Shown here piece after piece: positions 2,558-13,783 of a stretch of DNA of 64,000 nucleotides. The stretch is from Chloroflexota bacterium. Lineage in GTDB: Bacteria; Chloroflexota; Anaerolineae; DTLA01. The notes beneath the pieces are model-generated. The model had not been told where the DNA came from. It did no database searches and saw only the letters and a list, made by a program, of their open reading frames with translations. Within the stretch, counting starts at the first letter, position 1. Each line of letters starts with the position of its first letter. Both the position numbers and the translations under genes were made by a program. The stretch is taken from positions 1 to 64,000 of the forward strand of contig JADBJK010000063.1 of assembly GCA_014874485.1 (NCBI GenBank), written 5' to 3'.

Positions 2558-3466
2558 CTAGACTCGCAGCCTGGGATCCAGGGCGTCGCGCAGGCCGTCG
2601 CCCAGCAGGTTGAACCCCAGCACCGTCATCATGATGGCCAGGCCGGGGAAGATGACGATGTGCGGCGCGGTGAAGACGGACCCGCGGCCCTGGCCCAGCA
2701 TGGCGCCCCATTCGGGCGTGGGCGGGCGCGCGCCCAGGCCCAGGAAACTGAGGCCGGCGGCGTCCAGGATGGCCGTGGCGATGCCCAGCGTGCCCTGCAC
2801 GATGAGCGGCGTGAGGCAGTTGGGCAGGACGTTGCGGAACAGGATGCGCGTGGGCGGCACGCCGATGGCCCGCGCCGCCAGTACGTAGTCCTGCTCCTTC
2901 ACCGACAGCACCGACGCCCGCACGATACGGGCGTACACCGGAATGGACACGAAGGCGATGGCGTACAGCATGTTCATCAGACCAGGGCCGAGGATGGCGA
3001 CCACGGCGATGGCCAACAGCAGGCTGGGGAACGCCAGCAAGATGTCCATCACGCGCATGATGAGGTCATCCACCCAGCCGCCCTTGTACCCTGCGACGGC
3101 CCCCAGCAACGCCCCGACGACGATGGCCAGCGACACCGAGACGATGCCGATTTGCAGCGAGATCCGCGCCCCGAAGATGATGCGGCTCAGAATGTCGCGG
3201 CCCACCTCGTCCATCCCCATCCAGTGCTGGGCCGACGGGGGCTGGCGGCGCAAGAGAAGTTCTTGCTCAAGGGGGTCGTAGGGGGCCAGTTGCTCGGCGA
3301 AGATGGCGCAGATGAGGAGCAGGCCCAGGATAACCATGCCCGCGATGGCCAGGCGGTTGCGCACCAGGCGGCGCAGCGCGTCCAGATACAGCGTCGTCTG
3401 GGGCGGCAGTTGCAGTTCGGCGGCGCGGGGTTTTGCGGCTGGGATGGATCCAGGTGTGTCGGCCAT
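2558..3466 (-). CDS. Peptide/nickel ABC transporter permease (DppC-like)
   Basis: HWMGMDEVGRDILSRIIFGARISLQIG...LSFLGLGARPPTPEWGAMLGQGR. Confidence 0.95.
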   Translation of the reverse strand: MADTPGSIPAAKPRAAELQLPPQTTLYLDALRRLVRNRLAIAGMVILGLLLICAIFAEQLAPYDPLEQELLLRRQPPSAQHWMGMDEVGRDILSRIIFGARISLQIGIVSVSLAIVVGALLGAVAGYKGGWVDDLIMRVMDILLAFPSLLLAIAVVAILGPGLMNMLYAIAFVSIPVYARIVRASVLSVKEQDYVLAARAIGVPPTRILFRNVLPNCLTPLIVQGTLGIATAILDAAGLSFLGLGARPPTPEWGAMLGQGRGSVFTAPHIVIFPGLAIMMTVLGFNLLGDGLRDALDPRLRV

Positions 3467-3469
3467 GGC

Positions 3470-4549
3470 CTAACTCCCGTACCGGATGCGCGGATCTAGG
3501 TAGGCGTAGGAGATGTCCACCAGCAGGTTGACGAAGACGAAGATGAGGGCGATGACCAGCACCGTGCCCTGCACCACCGGATAATCGCGGGCCAGGATGC
3601 GGTCCACTACCAGCCGGCCCATCCCCGGCCACGAGAAGATGGTCTCGGTGAGAATCGCGCCGCCGAGAAGGGAGCCGAACTGCAGCCCGATGACGGTGAT
3701 CACCGGCAGGAAGGCGTTCTTCATGGCGTGGCCGAAGAGGACGACGCGCTCGCTCAGCCCCTTGGCCCGCGCCGTGCGGATGTAGTCCTCGCCCAGCACT
3801 TCCAACAGGCTGGAGCGGGTCATGCGGGCGATGATGGCCGCCGGAATGCTCCCCAACGCCAGCGATGGCAGGACGAGGTGCTTGAGCGCATCCCACAGCG
3901 CCTTGCCGTTGCCCGTCAGAATGGCCGTCAGGATGTAGAAGTTGGACAGGAAATCGGTGATGGGTTTGAGTTTGTACTGCCAGGTGCCCTCGGCCACGCC
4001 CGCTAGGAAGAAATCCGTGAGGCTCTGGAGTTCCACGCCGACGGTGAGGCGACCCGACGGCGGCAGCCACTTGAGTTTGAACCCGAAAATGTACATCAGG
4101 ATGAGGCCGAGCCAGAACACGGGCATGGACACGCCCACGAGCGCCCCCACCATCGTGCCCAGGTCTATCACGGTGTTGTGATAGTAGGCCGAGATGATGC
4201 CCGCGATGATGCCGATAATACAGGCGAGGAACATGGCCCCAAAGGTGAGTTCCACCGTGGCGGGCAGCCGCTGCATGAGTTCCACGGTTACCTTCTCGTT
4301 GGTGCGGATGGCGCGGCCCAGGTCGCCGTGGAGGATGTTGGTGAGGTAACGCCAGAACTGCACGTGGATGGGGTCGTTGAGGCCCATGGCCTCGCGGAAC
4401 CGTGCGATGGACTCCTCGGTGGCGTGTTCACCCAACATAATGCGCGCGGGGTCGCCGGGGATGAGGCGCAGCATGGAGAACGTGATGACCAGGATGCCGA
4501 GTAGAACCGGCACAAGCAGGACGAGCCTTTGCGCGATGTATCGGGTCAC
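3470..4549 (-). CDS. Peptide/nickel ABC transporter permease (DppB-like)
   Basis: MTRYIAQRLVLLVPVLLGILVITFSMLRLIPGDPA...ETIFSWPGMGRLVVDRILARDYPVVQGTVLV. Confidence 0.95.
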   Translation of the reverse strand: MTRYIAQRLVLLVPVLLGILVITFSMLRLIPGDPARIMLGEHATEESIARFREAMGLNDPIHVQFWRYLTNILHGDLGRAIRTNEKVTVELMQRLPATVELTFGAMFLACIIGIIAGIISAYYHNTVIDLGTMVGALVGVSMPVFWLGLILMYIFGFKLKWLPPSGRLTVGVELQSLTDFFLAGVAEGTWQYKLKPITDFLSNFYILTAILTGNGKALWDALKHLVLPSLALGSIPAAIIARMTRSSLLEVLGEDYIRTARAKGLSERVVLFGHAMKNAFLPVITVIGLQFGSLLGGAILTETIFSWPGMGRLVVDRILARDYPVVQGTVLVIALIFVFVNLLVDISYAYLDPRIRYGS

Positions 4550-4623: not shown

Positions 4624-6996
4624 CTATTCTCCCTTGAAGCCGCCGAAGAAGTAGCCCCAGTAGAAGAAGTCACCGGTATGGCCCACATGGTACGGATTGG
4701 CCTTGTCCCACCAGCGCTCAAAGTTGAAGATCACCGCATCGGCATTGAAGTCGGTGCCATCGGTGAACTTCACGCCCTTGCGCAGGTGGAAGGTCCACTC
4801 CAGGCCGTCCGCGGAGACTTCGTACTTCTCGGCCAGGACGGGAACCACCTCCACGGTGCCGGGCTTGAAGCCGAGCAGGCCCTGGAGAATCTGCTGGCAG
4901 ACCATGAAGGACTCGCCGTCGGTCTCGTCGGCCGGGTCCAGACCCACGGAGTCGCCGCTGCGGGCGAAGATGAGGGTGTCCTTGCCGGCCACTTCAGCCG
5001 TGGAGAAGTCCTCCAGGGACAGCGGGCTGGGGAGCACGCCCTTGACGGCCTTGCTGAAGACGAGGCCGCTGCTGTTGTGCACCACCGGCACCGCCGGCAC
5101 CAGGTCGTGGATGAGTTGGTTGGCCTGGTCGTAGATCTTCTGGCGCTCGGCGGGATCCATGGTGCTGGCGCCCTTGTCCAGAATCTCTACGATCTCCGGG
5201 AAGGTGGGGCCGAAGGACTTGTCCGCGCCCTTGCCGAAGAAGACATCCAGGAAGTTGGTCGCGTCGGCGTAGTCGGCCATCCAGCCCAGCATGAACAGGT
5301 CCGCCTCGCCCGCTGCCACCTTGTCCAGGTACACGCCCCAGTCGTAGGTTACGATCTCGGTCTCAATGCCGACTTTCTTCAGGTCGGCCTGGATCGCCTC
5401 GCCTACCTTCGCGGGGGTTGGGTAGTAGCCGCGGGACACGGGCATGACCCACAGCGTGGTCTTGAAGCCGTTGGGATAGCCCGCCTTCGCCAGCAGTTCC
5501 TTGGCCTTGGCCGGATCATACGGGTAATCCTGGAGATTCGGCGAGTGGCCGAAGACCGGCGGCGGCACGAACTGGGTCGCCACCTGGGCGGTCGGCGGGT
5601 ACAGGGCCTTCACGATGGCTTCCTTGTTGATGGCGTGGGCGATGGCCTGGCGCACCTCCAGTTTGTCAAAGGGCTCGTGCGCGCGGTTGATGCCCAGGTA
5701 GCCGATGTTGAACGGCGGACGGGCGAAGACCTGGAGGTTGGGATCGGCCTGGGCGGTCGGGAAGTCGTCCGGCGCCAGGTTGTCCAGCCCGTCCACGGTG
5801 CCCGCCTGGAGTTCCAGGAGCCGAGCGGGGGCTTCTTTGACGACGCGGAAGACCAGGTTCTTGAGTTTCGGCGCGCCGCCCCAGTAGTTGGGGTTCGCCA
5901 CCAGCGTGATGTGGTCGTCCGGTACCCATTCCTTGAGCATGAATGGGCCGGTGCCGACGGGGTTCTTGAACAGGTCTCCACCGCCGTTGAACTTCTTGAT
6001 GACCTCCGGGCTCAGGAACGAGAAGGCGTTGAAGGCCAGTTTCTGGGTGAAGGCGACATCCGGCCGGTTCAGGTAGATCTTGACCGTGTAGTCGTCCACC
6101 TTCTCAATGTAGCGGACCAGGCTGTTCTTGGTCGGGTCGGGCGCAGGGATTTCCGCAGCGGGGGGCGCTGCCAGCCACTTCTGCTCCAACTGGGCGATGA
6201 TCCCCTTGTCCATGACCGCCTTCAAGCCCTTGTTGATGGCCGCCAGGATTTCGGGCGCGTTCTTGCGGACGGCGATGCCGTAGAACTCATCGGTGAAGGG
6301 CTTGCCGACCGATTTGATCTTGCCTGCATACTTGGCCACGTAGCCGGTTACCAGCGGGTTGTCGGCGACCACGGCGTCAATCTGGCCGTTGATGAGGTCC
6401 AGGAAGGCCAGGTCCACGGTGTCGTAGTTCTTCAGCGTGGCGCCCTGGATTTTCTCCACCTCAATGGCGCCGGTGGTGCCCAGTTGAGCGCCCACCACTT
6501 TGCCCGCCAAGTCCGCCGGGCCGTTGATGCGGGTCTCATCCGTGCGCACCGCGATGAGTTGGCCGGCGTTGTAGTACGGATCCGAGAAGTCAAACTGCTG
6601 TTTGCGCTCCTCGGTGATGGTCATCGCCGAGCACGCAGCGTCGTACTGGCCCGCGGCCATGCCCGCCAAGAGCGAGTCCCACGCCACGTTGACGAATTCC
6701 ACCTCAAACCCCGCTTCGGCAGCGATGGCTTTCATCAGGTCAATGTCAAACCCGACGATCTCCTTGGTCTGCTCATCCACGTACTCAAACGGGGGCCAGG
6801 TGGCATCCGTCGCCACGGTGATCTTCATGGGAGCCTTGGTCGGCTCAGGCGTCGGCGTAGGCGCGGGCGTGGGCGTGGGCTTGGCCTGGTACGGCGGGGG
6901 CGCCGTCGGCGTGGGCTTGGCCCCGCAGGCCCCGAGCATGGTAACCACTGTTACAACGACCAGTAGCACGGTTAGCCATTTGTGTTTCCCGAACAT
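4624..6996 (-). CDS. Lipoprotein fusion: SBP_bac_3 (amino-acid-binding) plus circularly permuted SBP_bac_5 (peptide-binding)
   Basis: Lipobox LGAC; MKITVATDATWPPFEYVDEQTKEIVGFDIDLMKAIA (SBP_bac_3); then NSLVRYIEKVDDYTVKIYL...NPVGTGPFMLKEW...VHNSSGLVFSKAVKGVLPSP (SBP_bac_5 C-part) followed by KDTLIFARSGDSVGLDPADETDGES...FFGGFKGE (SBP_bac_5 N-part). Confidence 0.9.
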   Translation of the reverse strand: MFGKHKWLTVLLVVVTVVTMLGACGAKPTPTAPPPYQAKPTPTPAPTPTPEPTKAPMKITVATDATWPPFEYVDEQTKEIVGFDIDLMKAIAAEAGFEVEFVNVAWDSLLAGMAAGQYDAACSAMTITEERKQQFDFSDPYYNAGQLIAVRTDETRINGPADLAGKVVGAQLGTTGAIEVEKIQGATLKNYDTVDLAFLDLINGQIDAVVADNPLVTGYVAKYAGKIKSVGKPFTDEFYGIAVRKNAPEILAAINKGLKAVMDKGIIAQLEQKWLAAPPAAEIPAPDPTKNSLVRYIEKVDDYTVKIYLNRPDVAFTQKLAFNAFSFLSPEVIKKFNGGGDLFKNPVGTGPFMLKEWVPDDHITLVANPNYWGGAPKLKNLVFRVVKEAPARLLELQAGTVDGLDNLAPDDFPTAQADPNLQVFARPPFNIGYLGINRAHEPFDKLEVRQAIAHAINKEAIVKALYPPTAQVATQFVPPPVFGHSPNLQDYPYDPAKAKELLAKAGYPNGFKTTLWVMPVSRGYYPTPAKVGEAIQADLKKVGIETEIVTYDWGVYLDKVAAGEADLFMLGWMADYADATNFLDVFFGKGADKSFGPTFPEIVEILDKGASTMDPAERQKIYDQANQLIHDLVPAVPVVHNSSGLVFSKAVKGVLPSPLSLEDFSTAEVAGKDTLIFARSGDSVGLDPADETDGESFMVCQQILQGLLGFKPGTVEVVPVLAEKYEVSADGLEWTFHLRKGVKFTDGTDFNADAVIFNFERWWDKANPYHVGHTGDFFYWGYFFGGFKGE

Positions 6997-7439: not shown

Positions 7440-8336
7440 CTAGGCCGCCGTCCGCGCCCAGAGCATTCGGTTGTCGGCGAAGATCACGTCCAGCCGACCC
7501 TGCGCACGGAGCCAGGCAGCGCACGCCAGCACCGTGGTCTGGGCCAGACAGTACTGCGCGATCTGGTTGAGCGTCGCGCCCAGGGCGTCCATGACGGCCT
7601 TCACCAGGTCGCCCGTGGACGCGGGAGCCGCGCACGCCCCCAGGATGGTGTCCGCGATGGCGAGCAGGCGGTCGGCGTTGGCGCGGCACTCGGCGGCGGG
7701 GTCGGCCAGGGCCGGGCCGTGGCCGGGCGCGAAGTGCGCGTAGGGCATCTCCGGCAGGCGGCGGAGCGTGTCCAGTGCGCGCTCCACGTCGGCGCAGAAG
7801 GGAATCGGGTGCTTCGCCAGGGTCTCGCTTGGGAAGAACACGTCGCCGCAGAACAGCGTCCCGCCGAAGGCGTAGCCCACCTGATTGGGCGCGTGGCCGG
7901 CGAGCGCCACGACCTGAACCGGAATGCCCCCCACATCTAGCGGGCCGGGTTCCACCAGGGCGCTAACGCGGCACGGCGCGGCCAGCGTGAACTTGCCCAG
8001 GAGTTCGGGCACTGGCGCCGCGCCCGAGAACAGGAACTGCGGCTCCAGGTACGGGTTCTCCACGATGGCCGCTTCCAGCGCAGGGGCGTACACGGGAACC
8101 CCGAATCGCTCGGCGATGGCGCTAGCCCCGCCGAAGTGATCGGCGTGGGCATGGGTCAGGAGCAGCGCAACGGGCCGCGCTTGCAACTCGGCCAGCGCCC
8201 GGGCCACGCGGCGGGCCGTGTCGGCGTCCAGCCCGGCATCCACGATGAGCGCCCGGCCGTCGGCGATGATGAGGCCCGTATTGGACCCCGACGGGATCAG
8301 GTACGTGCTCTCCGTGAGTTCCAGTGTTGCGGTCAT
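7440..8336 (-). CDS. MBL-fold metallo-hydrolase
   Basis: LLLTHAHADHFGGASAIAERF...LAGHAPNQVGYAFGGTLFCGDVFFP...HFAPGHGPA. Confidence 0.9.
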   Translation of the reverse strand: MTATLELTESTYLIPSGSNTGLIIADGRALIVDAGLDADTARRVARALAELQARPVALLLTHAHADHFGGASAIAERFGVPVYAPALEAAIVENPYLEPQFLFSGAAPVPELLGKFTLAAPCRVSALVEPGPLDVGGIPVQVVALAGHAPNQVGYAFGGTLFCGDVFFPSETLAKHPIPFCADVERALDTLRRLPEMPYAHFAPGHGPALADPAAECRANADRLLAIADTILGACAAPASTGDLVKAVMDALGATLNQIAQYCLAQTTVLACAAWLRAQGRLDVIFADNRMLWARTAA

Positions 8337-8346
8337 GCCTGGCTCC

Positions 8347-8379
8347 ACAAAAAACGCCCCGGCCGTTTCACCGGGGCGT
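8347..8379 (-). terminator. Rho-independent terminator of the liv operon
   Basis: Minus strand ACGCCCCGG-TGAAACGG-CCGGGGCGT followed by TTTTT. Confidence 0.8.
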
Positions 8380-8399
8380 GGGTGTGAATTCCGGTGAAA

Positions 8400-9110
8400 C
8401 TAGGTTTCGCCCAGATAGGCCTTCTTGACCTGGGGGTTGTCTCGCAGTTCCTGGGCGGTGCCCTCCAGGACAATGCGGCCCGTTTCCAGCACGTAGCCTC
8501 GGTGTGCGATGGACAGGGCCATGTTGGCGTTCTGCTCCACCAGCAGGATGCTGGTCCCCTGCGAGTTGATCTCCTGGATGATGGAGAAGATTTCCTCCAC
8601 CAGGATGGGCGCCAGGCCCATGGAGGGCTCGTCCAGCAAGAGCAAGGTGGGGCGGGACATGAGTCCGCGGCCCATGGCCAGCATCTGCTGCTCGCCGCCG
8701 GAGAGGGTGCCCCCCAACTGGTTCAGGCGTTCCTTCAGGCGTGGGAACGAGGCGAAGACACGCTCGCGGCTGCGGGCGATCTCGGCCGGGTTGGTGCGGG
8801 TGTAGGCGCCCATGTCCAGGTTCTCGGCCACGGTGAGCGGCGCGAAGATCTTGCGGCCCTCCGGCACCTGGACGATGCCCAGGTGCACGATGTCGTGGGC
8901 GCGCATCTTGGTGATCTCCTGCCCCTTGAAGCGGATGGAGCCTTCGCGCGGGCGCAAGAGGCCCGAGATCGTGTTCAGCGTGGTGGACTTGCCGGCGCCA
9001 TTGGCCCCGATGAGGGTAACGATTTCACCCTGTTCCAAATGGAAGGAGATGCCCTGAAGGGCATGAATCGCGCCGTAGTACACGTGGAGGTTTTCCACTT
9101 CAAGAAGCAT
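8400..9110 (-). CDS. livF: Branched-chain amino acid ABC transporter ATP-binding protein
   Basis: MLLEVENLHVYYGAIHALQGISFHLEQGEIVTLIGANGAGKSTTLNTISGL...LSGGEQQMLAMGRGLMSRP. Confidence 0.95.
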   Translation of the reverse strand: MLLEVENLHVYYGAIHALQGISFHLEQGEIVTLIGANGAGKSTTLNTISGLLRPREGSIRFKGQEITKMRAHDIVHLGIVQVPEGRKIFAPLTVAENLDMGAYTRTNPAEIARSRERVFASFPRLKERLNQLGGTLSGGEQQMLAMGRGLMSRPTLLLLDEPSMGLAPILVEEIFSIIQEINSQGTSILLVEQNANMALSIAHRGYVLETGRIVLEGTAQELRDNPQVKKAYLGET

Positions 9111-9903
9111 ACCGTACCCCTCCAAGTCTGGCCGCAGCGCCGCGGCCCAGATAGGCTTCAATGACGCGCGGGTTGTTCTGGATTTCGGCAGCAGTCCCTC
9201 GCGCAATGACCTCGCCGAAGTCCATGACGGTGATCTCCTCGCAGATGCCCATGACCACGCGCATCTGGTGCTCAATGAGCAGGATGGTGAGCGAGAACTT
9301 GTCGCGGATGAAGTGAATCAGGTCCATCAGATTGACCACTTCTTTCGGGTTCATCCCTGCGGCAGGCTCATCCAGCAGGAGCAGCCGCGGGGTGGTGGCC
9401 AGGGCGCGGGCGATCTCCAGCCGCCGCTGCTCGCCGTAGGGCAGGTTCTTGGCGATCACGTCCTGGCGGTCGGCCAGGTTGAACACGGCCAGGAATTCCT
9501 GCGCCCGCTCGGTGAGTTCCCTTTCCTTGCGCCAGAAGTGCGGCGTGCGGAAGATGGCGTCGCGGATGCCGTAGCCCGCGTGGGTGTGGTAGGCCGTGCG
9601 CACGTTGTCCAGCACCGTCAGGTTGGGGAACAGGCGGATGTTCTGGAAGGTGCGCGAGATGCCCAGTTGCGCGATGGCGTGGGGCTGCATCCCGACGATG
9701 CTCTTGCCGTCAAACAGGATGTCGCCTTCGGTTACGGTGTACAGGCCGGTGATCATGTTGAAGACGGTGGTCTTGCCCGCGCCGTTGGGCCCGATGAGGC
9801 CGGCGAGTTGGCCCTCGTTGACGGTGATGTCAAAGTTGCAGACGGCGCGCAGGCCGCCGAAGTATTTTGTGCACCGTTCTACCTGCAGTAGTGGGCCCAT
9901 CAC
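9100..9903 (-). CDS. livG: Branched-chain amino acid ABC transporter ATP-binding protein
   Basis: LLQVERCTKYFGGLRAVCNFDITVNEGQLAGLIGPNGAGKTTVFNMITGLY...GISRTFQNIRLFPNLTVLDNV. Confidence 0.95.
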   Translation of the reverse strand: MMGPLLQVERCTKYFGGLRAVCNFDITVNEGQLAGLIGPNGAGKTTVFNMITGLYTVTEGDILFDGKSIVGMQPHAIAQLGISRTFQNIRLFPNLTVLDNVRTAYHTHAGYGIRDAIFRTPHFWRKERELTERAQEFLAVFNLADRQDVIAKNLPYGEQRRLEIARALATTPRLLLLDEPAAGMNPKEVVNLMDLIHFIRDKFSLTILLIEHQMRVVMGICEEITVMDFGEVIARGTAAEIQNNPRVIEAYLGRGAAARLGGVRYAS

Positions 9904-10988
9904 ACTGCCTCCTGACCAGCGGTTTCCACTTTGGGTGCGCCCGTGTCAAACTTGCGACGCGGCCACTCTATCGGCTTGAGGAACCCCCATTCTATGCCGC
10001 CCAGCAAACCCTGCGGCCGCAGGAGCATGATCAAGAGAAGCGCGACGGGGTAGATGATGTACCGCCATGCCTCCGCTCCGGAGGGTAAGATGATCCGCAG
10101 CCCCTCTAGCGAGAGCGCCCACGCGAAAGCGGCCACGACGGTGCCGGTGATGGAGCCAAGCCCGCCGAACACGACGATGATCATCGGGTCAAAGGACTTG
10201 ATGAAGTGGAACAGGCTCGGGTGCAGGAAGGCGTATAGGTGGGCGTAGATGCCGCCCGCCAGCCCCGCGTAGATGCCGCCGATGACGAAGGACAGGGTCT
10301 TGTACTTGACCGTGTCAATGCCCATGGCTTTGGCTGCGATCTCGTTCTCGCGCACGGAGACGATAGCGCGCCCCGTGGACGAATGCAGGATGTTGCGCAA
10401 GATAATGATGCACAGCACCAGCAGGAAGAACGACCAGAACCACGTCGTAAGTCGTGGAATGCCTACCATGCCGCGCGCGCCCTTCATCTCGGGGAATGGG
10501 AGGATAGTGTCCGTGTTGTCGGCCAGCACCTTGACCACGATGGTGAACCCCAGCGTGGCGATGCCGAAGTAGTCGCCGCCCATCTTCAGCACGGGCAGGC
10601 CGAAGAGGTAGGCGATCACACCGGCCAGAAGGGCGCCGAAGGCGATGGCCACCAAGAAGATGGCGATCTTCCCCGCATCAAACGTGGCGAATCCCAAGTC
10701 CAGAGGGATGCTCACCTTCGCCGCGTAGCGGTATGTGATGTCCGCCGAAGCGTAGGCGCCGATGGCGTAGAACCCCCACTGGCCTAGGGAGAACTGGCCG
10801 TTGAACCCGTAGATCAGATTTAGCCCCAGACTGACAATCGCCATGACGCAGCCCAGTTGGATAACCGTCTTCATGTAGTCCGTGATGACGTTGGTGCTGA
10901 ACAGCACCTGGACTACCGCGTACACGCCGATGGCTCCAACCCAAAAGAGCCACGACGCCCCGAGAAACTCAAGCCTTCTCTTCTTCAT
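9900..10988 (-). CDS. livM: Branched-chain amino acid ABC transporter permease
   Basis: LGLNLIYGFNGQFSLGQWGFYAIGAYASA...GGLGSITGTVVAAF. Confidence 0.93.
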   Translation of the reverse strand: MKKRRLEFLGASWLFWVGAIGVYAVVQVLFSTNVITDYMKTVIQLGCVMAIVSLGLNLIYGFNGQFSLGQWGFYAIGAYASADITYRYAAKVSIPLDLGFATFDAGKIAIFLVAIAFGALLAGVIAYLFGLPVLKMGGDYFGIATLGFTIVVKVLADNTDTILPFPEMKGARGMVGIPRLTTWFWSFFLLVLCIIILRNILHSSTGRAIVSVRENEIAAKAMGIDTVKYKTLSFVIGGIYAGLAGGIYAHLYAFLHPSLFHFIKSFDPMIIVVFGGLGSITGTVVAAFAWALSLEGLRIILPSGAEAWRYIIYPVALLLIMLLRPQGLLGGIEWGFLKPIEWPRRKFDTGAPKVETAGQEAV

Positions 10989-11085
10989 AACCCGTCTCCG
11001 GTGTGCCGATTTCTTGTGGGAACTGTCCTCATGGAACGCATGGGGCCAGCGGTAAAAGCCCGCCACCCCCAAACCCGCCGCGCGC

Positions 11086-12378
11086 CTACGCCTTCTCGCC
11101 CTCCGGCTCGCCGAAGATACCGGTGGGCCGAATCAGGAGCACGATGATCAGGATGGTGAAGGCGATGGCGTCGCGCATGGGCGTCAGGATGTAGCCTGCG
11201 CTGAGCATCTCGGCCTGGCCCATGATGAGGGAACCGACGAACGCACCATTGAGGTTGCCGATGCCGCCCAGCACCGCTGCCACGAAGGCTTTGAGGCCGG
11301 GCATGATCCCCATGAACACGATGAGTTGCGGGTAGGCGATGGCGTACAGGACGCCGCCCGCTCCTGCCAGCGCTGCGCCGATGGCGAAGGTCTTGGTGAT
11401 CACGCCGTCCACGTCAATGCCCATCAGGCGCGCCGTGGGCTTGTCCCACGATGTGGCGCGCATGGCCTTGCCCAGTTTAGTCCCATACACGATCCAGCGC
11501 AACAGCAGCAGGAACAGAATAGAGACCAGGATGATGATGATCGTTACGTTGGAAATCTGCACGCCCAAAATCTTCCAACTGACGACCTTGAACGGCTGCT
11601 CGTAGATAATGTAGTTGGAGGTGAAGACTTCGGGCAGCGACGAGAAGTACTCCAGGAAGAACGAGACGCCAATGGCGGTGATGAGAGCAGCGATGCGCGG
11701 CGCGTTTCGCAGCGGTTTGTAGGCGACGCGCTCAATGACGACGGCCAGAAGCATGCACACGACCATGGACAAGATGATCACCAAGACTGTGCCGATGGCG
11801 ATGGCCACCCACGGCGAGAGGGTTGGGAACAATCGCGCCGGCAACAGATGAAGCCGCATCGCCTTGATGGCGTAGAAACTCGTGAAGGCGCCGACCATGA
11901 ACACATCGCCGTGGGCGAAGTTGATGAGGCGCACGATGCCGTACACCATCGTGTAGCCCAAGGAGATAAGCGCATACACAAAACCAAGACGAATGCCATC
12001 CACAACGTACTGGGCAAACAGGGTGGGGTTGATGAGCACGCCCTCGGGGTGCTGGACGAACATCCGCCAGAGGAACCAGATGGCCAGCAGAATCATGAGT
12101 GCGTTGCCCGCCACCGAACGGGCGATCTTGCCGAAGCCGGCGCCGGCTTGCTTGCGAATCTGCGAGCGGGTGATCCAACCGACCAGATACAGGAACCAGA
12201 CGCCAAAGCCAATGGAACCGGCCTGCATCACAAGGCCCGGGACCACGCCATCCTTGTCCCAGGCCTCCAATTCTTGGGGAGTAAGCGAGGAGTGGAAAAG
12301 CATGAAAAGCCCGGCAGCAGCGACGCCGAGCGCAATCCCCCCAAGGAACAGGGCCAACGATTTCAAAGTACGATTCAT
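11086..12378 (-). CDS. livH: Branched-chain amino acid ABC transporter permease
   Basis: GIRLGFVYALISLGYTMVYGIVRLINFAHGDVFMVGAF...AVLGGIGNLNGAFVGSLIMGQAEML. Confidence 0.93.
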   Translation of the reverse strand: MNRTLKSLALFLGGIALGVAAAGLFMLFHSSLTPQELEAWDKDGVVPGLVMQAGSIGFGVWFLYLVGWITRSQIRKQAGAGFGKIARSVAGNALMILLAIWFLWRMFVQHPEGVLINPTLFAQYVVDGIRLGFVYALISLGYTMVYGIVRLINFAHGDVFMVGAFTSFYAIKAMRLHLLPARLFPTLSPWVAIAIGTVLVIILSMVVCMLLAVVIERVAYKPLRNAPRIAALITAIGVSFFLEYFSSLPEVFTSNYIIYEQPFKVVSWKILGVQISNVTIIIILVSILFLLLLRWIVYGTKLGKAMRATSWDKPTARLMGIDVDGVITKTFAIGAALAGAGGVLYAIAYPQLIVFMGIMPGLKAFVAAVLGGIGNLNGAFVGSLIMGQAEMLSAGYILTPMRDAIAFTILIIVLLIRPTGIFGEPEGEKA

Positions 12379-12444
12379 GCCAAATCTCCTGCACAGAGAT
12401 TGCGAGGGGCTGGTGGCCAAAGGGTGTGCATGGGTCCTCTTTCC

Positions 12445-12474
12445 GCAGGGGGGCGGAATGTGCCGCCCCCCTGC
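12445..12474. repeat. Perfect 12-bp stem hairpin between the liv SBP and permease genes
   Basis: gcaggggggcgg-aatgtg-ccgcccccctgc; no U-tract on the minus strand. Confidence 0.8.
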
Positions 12475-12492
12475 AGGAAATGCGCCTCAGGT

Positions 12493-13638
12493 TTACGGGT
12501 TCACCGTGGCCATGTAGGACTTCTTGCCATCCTTGACCGAGATGACGACGGCCGACTTGATCGGGTTGTGCTGCGCATCAAAGGTGATCTTGCCGGACAC
12601 GCCATCAAACGAGAGTTTCTCCATGGCGACGCGCACCTTGTCGGGGTCGTCGCTGCCGGCCTGCTGGATGGCGGTTACGAGCAAGTTAGCCGCGTCGTAG
12701 GCAAGGGTCGCCAAGGCATCGGGAACCTTGCCGCCGTAGCGAGCGCCATAGGTCTTGAGCCAGGACTGGACGACCGGGCGCGGGTCCGCAGCATCGTAGT
12801 GGTTGCTGAAGAAGCCGCCGTCCACCGCCGCCACGTCCAACTCTTCGGAGTCCCAGCCGTCGCCGCCGCCCATCGGGCAGGTGATGCCTTTCTCCTTGGC
12901 CTGCTTGGCGATGAGGTTGACCTTGTTGTAGTAGTCGGGCAGGAACAGGAAGTCGGGCTTGGCGTCGGCAACCTTCGCCAGGATGGCCGAGAAGTCGGTG
13001 TCATCCTTGGTGTAGGTCTCCCAGACGAGGACCTTGCCGCCGCCTTTCTCAAAGGCATCGCGGAAGTACTCGGCCAGGCCGCGCACGTAGTCGTTGCCCT
13101 GGTCCAGGAGGACCGCCGCCGTCTTGGCCTTCAGGTTCTCCAGCGCGAACTTGGCCATCACGGTGCCCTGGAACGGGTCAATGAAGCACGCGCGGAAGGT
13201 GAAGGGCTTGGTGGAGCCGTCGGCGAAGGTCGTTACCTTGGGGTTGGTGGACGTCGGGCTGATCTGCAGCACCTTCTTCTCGTTGGCGACTTCGGAGACG
13301 GGGATGGAGGCGCTGGAGCAGACCTCGCCCACGATGAACTTGACCTTGTCCTGGTCAATCACCTTGTTGGCGGCGTTGCGGGCCTCCTGGGGGTCGCAGC
13401 GGCCGTCGGCCACAACCCACTCAATCTTCTTGCCGAGGACGCCGCCCTTGGCGTTCCACTCCTCAAAGGCGAGGACTGCGCCGTCGCGGGTGGACGCGCC
13501 GAAGGTGCCCACGTCGCCGGTCATGGGGGCGATGATGGCGATCTTGATGGTCTTGGCGCCACCGCCGCCGCAGCCCGCGAACAGGCTCGCCAGCATGGCG
13601 ACCAACACGATCAATCCAACATACTTCGCGGTTTTCAT
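12493..13638 (-). CDS. Branched-chain amino acid ABC transporter substrate-binding lipoprotein
   Basis: Lipobox FAGC; KIAIIAPMTGDVGTFGASTRDGAVLAFEEWNAKGGVLGKKIEWVVADGRCDPQEA. Confidence 0.93.
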   Translation of the reverse strand: MKTAKYVGLIVLVAMLASLFAGCGGGGAKTIKIAIIAPMTGDVGTFGASTRDGAVLAFEEWNAKGGVLGKKIEWVVADGRCDPQEARNAANKVIDQDKVKFIVGEVCSSASIPVSEVANEKKVLQISPTSTNPKVTTFADGSTKPFTFRACFIDPFQGTVMAKFALENLKAKTAAVLLDQGNDYVRGLAEYFRDAFEKGGGKVLVWETYTKDDTDFSAILAKVADAKPDFLFLPDYYNKVNLIAKQAKEKGITCPMGGGDGWDSEELDVAAVDGGFFSNHYDAADPRPVVQSWLKTYGARYGGKVPDALATLAYDAANLLVTAIQQAGSDDPDKVRVAMEKLSFDGVSGKITFDAQHNPIKSAVVISVKDGKKSYMATVNP

Positions 13639-13783
13639 AAACACCTCTCCTCCTCTACATGGTTGGCCCAGAGGGCCAGTGTACTGGGGTCCCAACTGCG
13701 TTCAGAGTACGGTGGTTTGCAGCGGGCCTACCCGCTGCGCGAAGTGTCTGTCGGCGATCACCTCCCTTCACCAGCAGAAGTTA

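Follow-up and report, generated by a model that had tools for sequence, protein, structure and literature searches.

A circularly permuted peptide-binding domain fused behind an amino-acid-binding domain in lipoproteins of Chloroflexota

Circular permutation has already been described in substrate-binding proteins (SBPs) from other clusters, and tandem SBPs are known as well. Tp0684 (TpMglB-2) and its relatives are naturally circularly permuted glucose-binding lipoproteins of cluster B, for which the authors proposed a tie between permutation and membrane tethering (PMC4990184). The glycine-betaine-binding proteins have been reported as a circular-permutation family (PMC2395249), and in GlnPQ of lactococci the tandem domains SBD1 and SBD2 are fused to the permease (PMC8025302). 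The dipeptide receptor DppA of E. coli (cluster C, PF00496; 1dpp, 8z1y) forms salt bridges to the carboxylate and the amino group of the dipeptide through R383 and D436, respectively (PMC12136057), the latter being D408 in mature numbering (PMC3295651). The open-access literature searched yielded no description of a permuted SBP from cluster C (family 5) or of its fusion to SBP_bac_3, in line with the initial annotation of the gene described here, which had regarded the architecture as undescribed.

The gene lies at 4624-6996 of the window, i.e. the whole 64,000-nucleotide stretch of Chloroflexota DNA that was analysed; all window features given below are on the minus strand. It is an uninterrupted ORF of 790 aa with an ATG start and an aggagg-type ribosome site immediately upstream. 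The ORF, Pfam, an orthologue in a congener and dN/dS characterized the product as a lipoprotein in which SBP_bac_3 is followed by a circularly permuted SBP_bac_5. The signal peptide (residues 1-25, 6922-6996) has a helix at residues 6-22 in the predicted model, and the lipobox LGAC is located right behind this helix. The Pro/Thr-rich tether (residues 26-57, 6826-6921) was disordered in the model, with pLDDT below 50 at residues 23-52. It leads into the SBP_bac_3 amino-acid-binding module (residues 58-280, 6157-6825), for which Pfam gave a PF00497 match at residues 59-275 (E 3.5e-46, 156.7 bits versus a gathering score of 26.4); the match to TIGR01096 (lysine/arginine/ornithine-type) was below the cut-off.

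A short linker (residues ~281-291, 6124-6156) separates the two receptors; behind it, the segments of DppA appear in reverse order. The C-terminal part of SBP_bac_5 comes first (residues 292-668, 4993-6123; DppA precursor 150-532; ~375 residues), followed by the joint of the old C- and N-termini at about residues 665-674 (near 669; about 4975-5005) and the N-terminal part (residues 672-790, 4627-4983; DppA precursor ~20-143; ~120 residues), which ends with FFGGFKGE. SBP_bac_5 (PF00496) was matched with 364 bits versus a gathering score of 32.4, in two stretches, the best of which placed residues 293-592 on profile positions 64-366 of 368. A phmmer search against PDB chains (DppA, 8z1y) aligned residues ~292-667 with DppA 151-532, the C-terminal 75% of that protein, and residues ~652-780 with DppA 8-143, and the NCBIfam DppA profile aligned residues 292-667 with its positions 150-532. 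The permutation cut thus falls behind residue ~143 and before residue ~151 of the DppA precursor. These alignments bear out the initial annotation, which had read the chain as SBP_bac_3, SBP5-C and SBP5-N in this order and had put the two junctions where they were found. The closest paralogue, encoded on contig C51 of the window genome, keeps the normal SBP_bac_5 order, so the permuted order is no search artefact. The DppA equivalog NF043070 scored 342 bits, under its curated cut-off of 1005, and for this reason a specificity for dipeptides is presumed rather than assigned. The permuted domain is an SBP_bac_5 by fold and ligand residues but fails the normal linear order of the family, and is best named a permuted subfamily.

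The window genome is a draft assembly (122 contigs, 3.74 Mb), in which pieces of different genes could have been fused by misassembly or a frameshift. The initial annotation had named misassembly at either junction among the outcomes that would refute it. It was found that orthologues in many independent assemblies share the order and both junctions, which rules misassembly out. The congener G001 has the same architecture at 96% identity, and a near-identical partial copy (97%) is present in Anaerolineae bacterium isolate A05DMB-I-30. A strong match was obtained in half of the 396 Anaerolineae genomes sampled, many of the matches being unbroken across the junction, and matches in other Chloroflexota families run through it as well. 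By reading the ORFs of 80 extracted Chloroflexota loci together with the window (81 loci), the permuted order was established in 83 proteins, of which 27 have it joined to SBP3, the arrangement of the window protein. Single-contig genomes (G011, G028, G227 and G350) are among the carriers. The C-terminal ends of all 83 fall 0-15 residues beyond that of the window protein, and a lipobox was recognized in 61 of them (rough pattern; starts picked automatically). Compared with G001, dN/dS indicated purifying selection, at 0.065 for the whole protein and 0.016 for the displaced N-terminal part, where constraint is tightest, and no amino-acid change was observed across 36 codons at the junction of the old termini. 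With the same order and cut point in so many separate genomes, and dN/dS far below 1 over both junctions, an assembly or frameshift artefact has a practically negligible probability. The architecture therefore stands as first claimed, although not as one odd gene: the protein is a member of a large permuted family of Chloroflexota.

A structure was predicted by AlphaFold2 from an input alignment of permuted homologues only. The whole fusion gave a pLDDT of 90.8, and the permuted domain alone a pLDDT of 94.0 and a pTM of 0.89, the new joint showing no drop in confidence; pLDDT was mostly above 90 in the C-terminal part. The two SBP5 parts, which had been expected to complement each other, were closed by the prediction into one confident and complete fold. 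The best Foldseek matches were DppA and GbpA, with ~385 of 507 residues aligned, as would be expected if the permuted ~120 residues escape sequential alignment; the TM-score to 3m8u was 0.72 over the sequential part. Arg522 (5431-5433) and Asp575 (5272-5274) correspond in the alignment to DppA R383, which binds the dipeptide carboxylate, and D436, which binds the amino group. Of the 86 permuted sequences, 84 keep the Arg and 85 the Asp. The model thus supports closure of the permuted SBP5 into one DppA-like fold. From sequence alone, a swap between adjacent chains would be compatible with the data, so that the two parts would pair between molecules, or one part could be degenerate; the confident prediction of a closed monomer, the short junction, the retained ligand residues and the strongest constraint on precisely the displaced part make either case very unlikely. 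With closure within one chain as the preferred reading, the domain resembles DppA in sequence (~35% identity), in fold and in the two salt-bridge residues, and differs in that DppA 150-532 precedes DppA ~20-143 and is fused behind SBP3. By the domain boundaries of OppA and DppA, we take both old termini, as well as the new cut, to lie in the N-lobe; the hinge crossings are therefore expected to be unchanged.

Downstream of the fusion gene are genes for a DppB-like permease with the scoop-loop residue E41 (GEH here; 3470-4549), a DppC-like permease (2558-3466), a HisM-like polar amino-acid permease (1678-2529) and a HisP-like ATPase (954-1688), all assigned by Pfam. A desulfoferrodoxin-family gene (PF01880, 455-943) directly follows the last of these and is also present in the congener (L083). 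The linkage to DppB and DppC with a conserved scoop Glu is a further likeness to DppA: the permuted gene usually adjoins dppB-dppC, and the scoop motif read GER, GEK or GEH in 68 of 83 DppB matches by a strict pattern, the motif also being present, outside this pattern, in the remaining matches as listed. The fused form is mostly accompanied by the polar-amino-acid permease and ATPase as well. The same series of fusion, DppB, DppC, HisM and HisP was found in the window, L083-L085, L088-L091, L102, L103, L105, L113 and L119, and L108 and L120 have this operon set with SBP3 and the permuted SBP5 (cpSBP5) as separate genes.

Just upstream of the fusion, the window carries LivJ-, LivH-, LivM-, LivG- and LivF-type genes of a branched-chain amino-acid system and then a metallo-beta-lactamase-fold gene (7440-8348), the whole group occupying 7440-13695. 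A Liv cluster before SBP3/cpSBP5 was also observed in L097, L102, L105, L108, L114, L118, L119 and L132, among which only L097 and L108 have the metallo-beta-lactamase-fold gene with it.

The protein is very probably a two-receptor lipoprotein of a composite locus for amino-acid and dipeptide uptake, and its function is inferred to be the capture of amino acids and dipeptides for two ABC permeases. The N-terminal cysteine would be lipidated and anchor the chain; SBP3 would close on a polar amino acid and deliver it to HisM-HisP, and the permuted SBP5 would close on a di- or tripeptide and deliver it to DppB-DppC, whose scoop loop carries the conserved Glu. Neither DppD nor DppF was found in the window cluster, where HisP is the sole ATPase. 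L118 and loci from other classes carry DppD and DppF, and DppD homologues are encoded elsewhere in the genome of the window; the two ATPases would most likely be provided in trans by another dpp locus of the genome. The lack of DppD and DppF in the cluster, together with the fact that receptor fusions can act in sensing, would also suit a sensor or scavenging platform in place of a transporter subunit, in which case the permutation would be an adaptation to signalling. This seems improbable, because the linkage to DppB, DppC, HisM and HisP is conserved, and in L118 the fusion set is joined by DppD-DppF, so that a single fused receptor is surrounded by two complete ABC systems.

The tree bears on how often the permutation occurred. 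When L035 and L044, which have the canonical order, were omitted, canonical relatives from Bacillota, Caldisericota and Coprothermobacterota were split from all permuted sequences with support of 100/99. In the free tree, L035 and L044 were placed inside the permuted clade, joining L087/L088 at 97/94, which would point to more than one origin of the permutation or to reversion in the L035/L044 lineage. Yet these two sequences sit on a branch of length 0.7, a single permuted clade with both included was not rejected by the AU test (p = 0.096), and the cut point is uniform in 83 of 83 permuted sequences, so that repeated origin or reversion is considered unlikely. Most likely the permutation arose once, probably when an ordinary dppA was duplicated in tandem and the outer ends of the pair were lost.

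Outside Chloroflexota the sample comprised Bacillota, Caldisericota/Coprothermobacterota, Armatimonadota and Actinomycetota. In Bacillota, 35 of the 200 genomes yielded 39 matches, and not one of these ran across the junction; the permuted form was absent from all 54 Caldisericota/Coprothermobacterota. No match was obtained at the threshold in Armatimonadota, where the one known canonical match also fell just below it, so that this negative carries no weight. Three of 199 Actinomycetota have permuted copies (L167, L168 and L169), each with DppB-DppC-DppD-DppF; because these are nested within the Chloroflexota clade, they are likely the result of horizontal transfer or binning error. A wide permuted family beyond Chloroflexota had been suggested by tblastn spans of 290-790 in Brevibacillus, Caldisericota and others. 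It was rejected, since the ORFs there have the normal order and the apparent span arose from two pieces merged into one range.

The permuted module occurs alone, behind SBP3, and behind a LivJ-type Peripla_BP_6 receptor (L117, L121, L122, L125 and L129). In L122, a 1336-aa protein (9268-13275, plus strand) has two Peripla_BP_6 domains before cpSBP5 and adjoins a gene with a single Peripla_BP_6 and cpSBP5, and L085 (4621-8016, minus strand) encodes a 1132-aa lipoprotein with the triple fusion of Peripla_BP_6 (LivJ-type), SBP_bac_3 and cpSBP5. BMP-like sequence, named as such from the sequence, was observed upstream of cpSBP5 in a poor-quality, frameshifted stretch of L120, suggesting that the module probably also sits behind a BMP-type receptor. 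L132 (5154-7376, minus strand) has SBP_bac_3 fused to a normal-order SBP_bac_5 beside its SBP3-cpSBP5 gene, which is an independent joining of the two families. Secreted cpSBP5 proteins with a LysM-like N-terminus (DYTVVAGDTLFKLSAKFLGDGNRYLEIVEATN) and without a lipobox are encoded on the minus strand of L092 (7970-9829), L093 and L094; no LysM match to these N-termini was returned by Pfam at 1e-4.

Between L090/L091 and the window, the SBP3 module is 84-87% identical and cpSBP5 only 53%, so exchange or fusion of modules happened more than once. About 15 state changes are required for the SBP3 fusion on the cpSBP5 tree, gain and loss not being distinguishable. In the SBP3 tree L172, L173 and L175 duplicate L085, L132 and L084, and label counts were left unused. 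The permutation would have put the N-terminus on an N-lobe loop remote from the binding cleft, and a signal peptide, an anchor or a second receptor could therefore be attached there. Chloroflexota would since have joined the module to SBP3, to LivJ-type and probably to BMP-type receptors, more than once. One ancient permutation that spread in Chloroflexota, with repeated fusions (SBP3, LivJ, probably BMP) yielding multi-receptor lipoproteins, each of which would supply several ABC permeases from a single anchor, is a likely account of the family as a whole.

Among the described systems, TpMglB-2 is likewise an ABC receptor that is a tethered lipoprotein and is circularly permuted by nature. 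However, it has a cluster B sugar-binding fold and is unfused, whereas the present domain is a peptide-binding one of cluster C. The permutation of TpMglB-2 also introduces a fourth crossing of the hinge; the present one probably stays within one lobe. The glycine-betaine-binding proteins are likewise an SBP family with permutation, but belong to another SBP cluster and no fusion is described there. GlnPQ also has two substrate-binding domains per polypeptide; both are unpermuted and serve one permease, in contrast to the two receptor families and, presumably, two permeases here.

A naturally permuted peptide-binding family, phylum-wide in Chloroflexota, is added by these results. Ordinary domain annotation overlooks this family, since Pfam still labels its members SBP_bac_5. 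Permuted peptide biosensors could take the domain as their natural template. The reasons for permutation in tethered receptors, left unanswered for TpMglB-2, can be addressed directly with this family, which also allows asking whether receptors of different families on one chain and one anchor gain local concentration or co-ordination.
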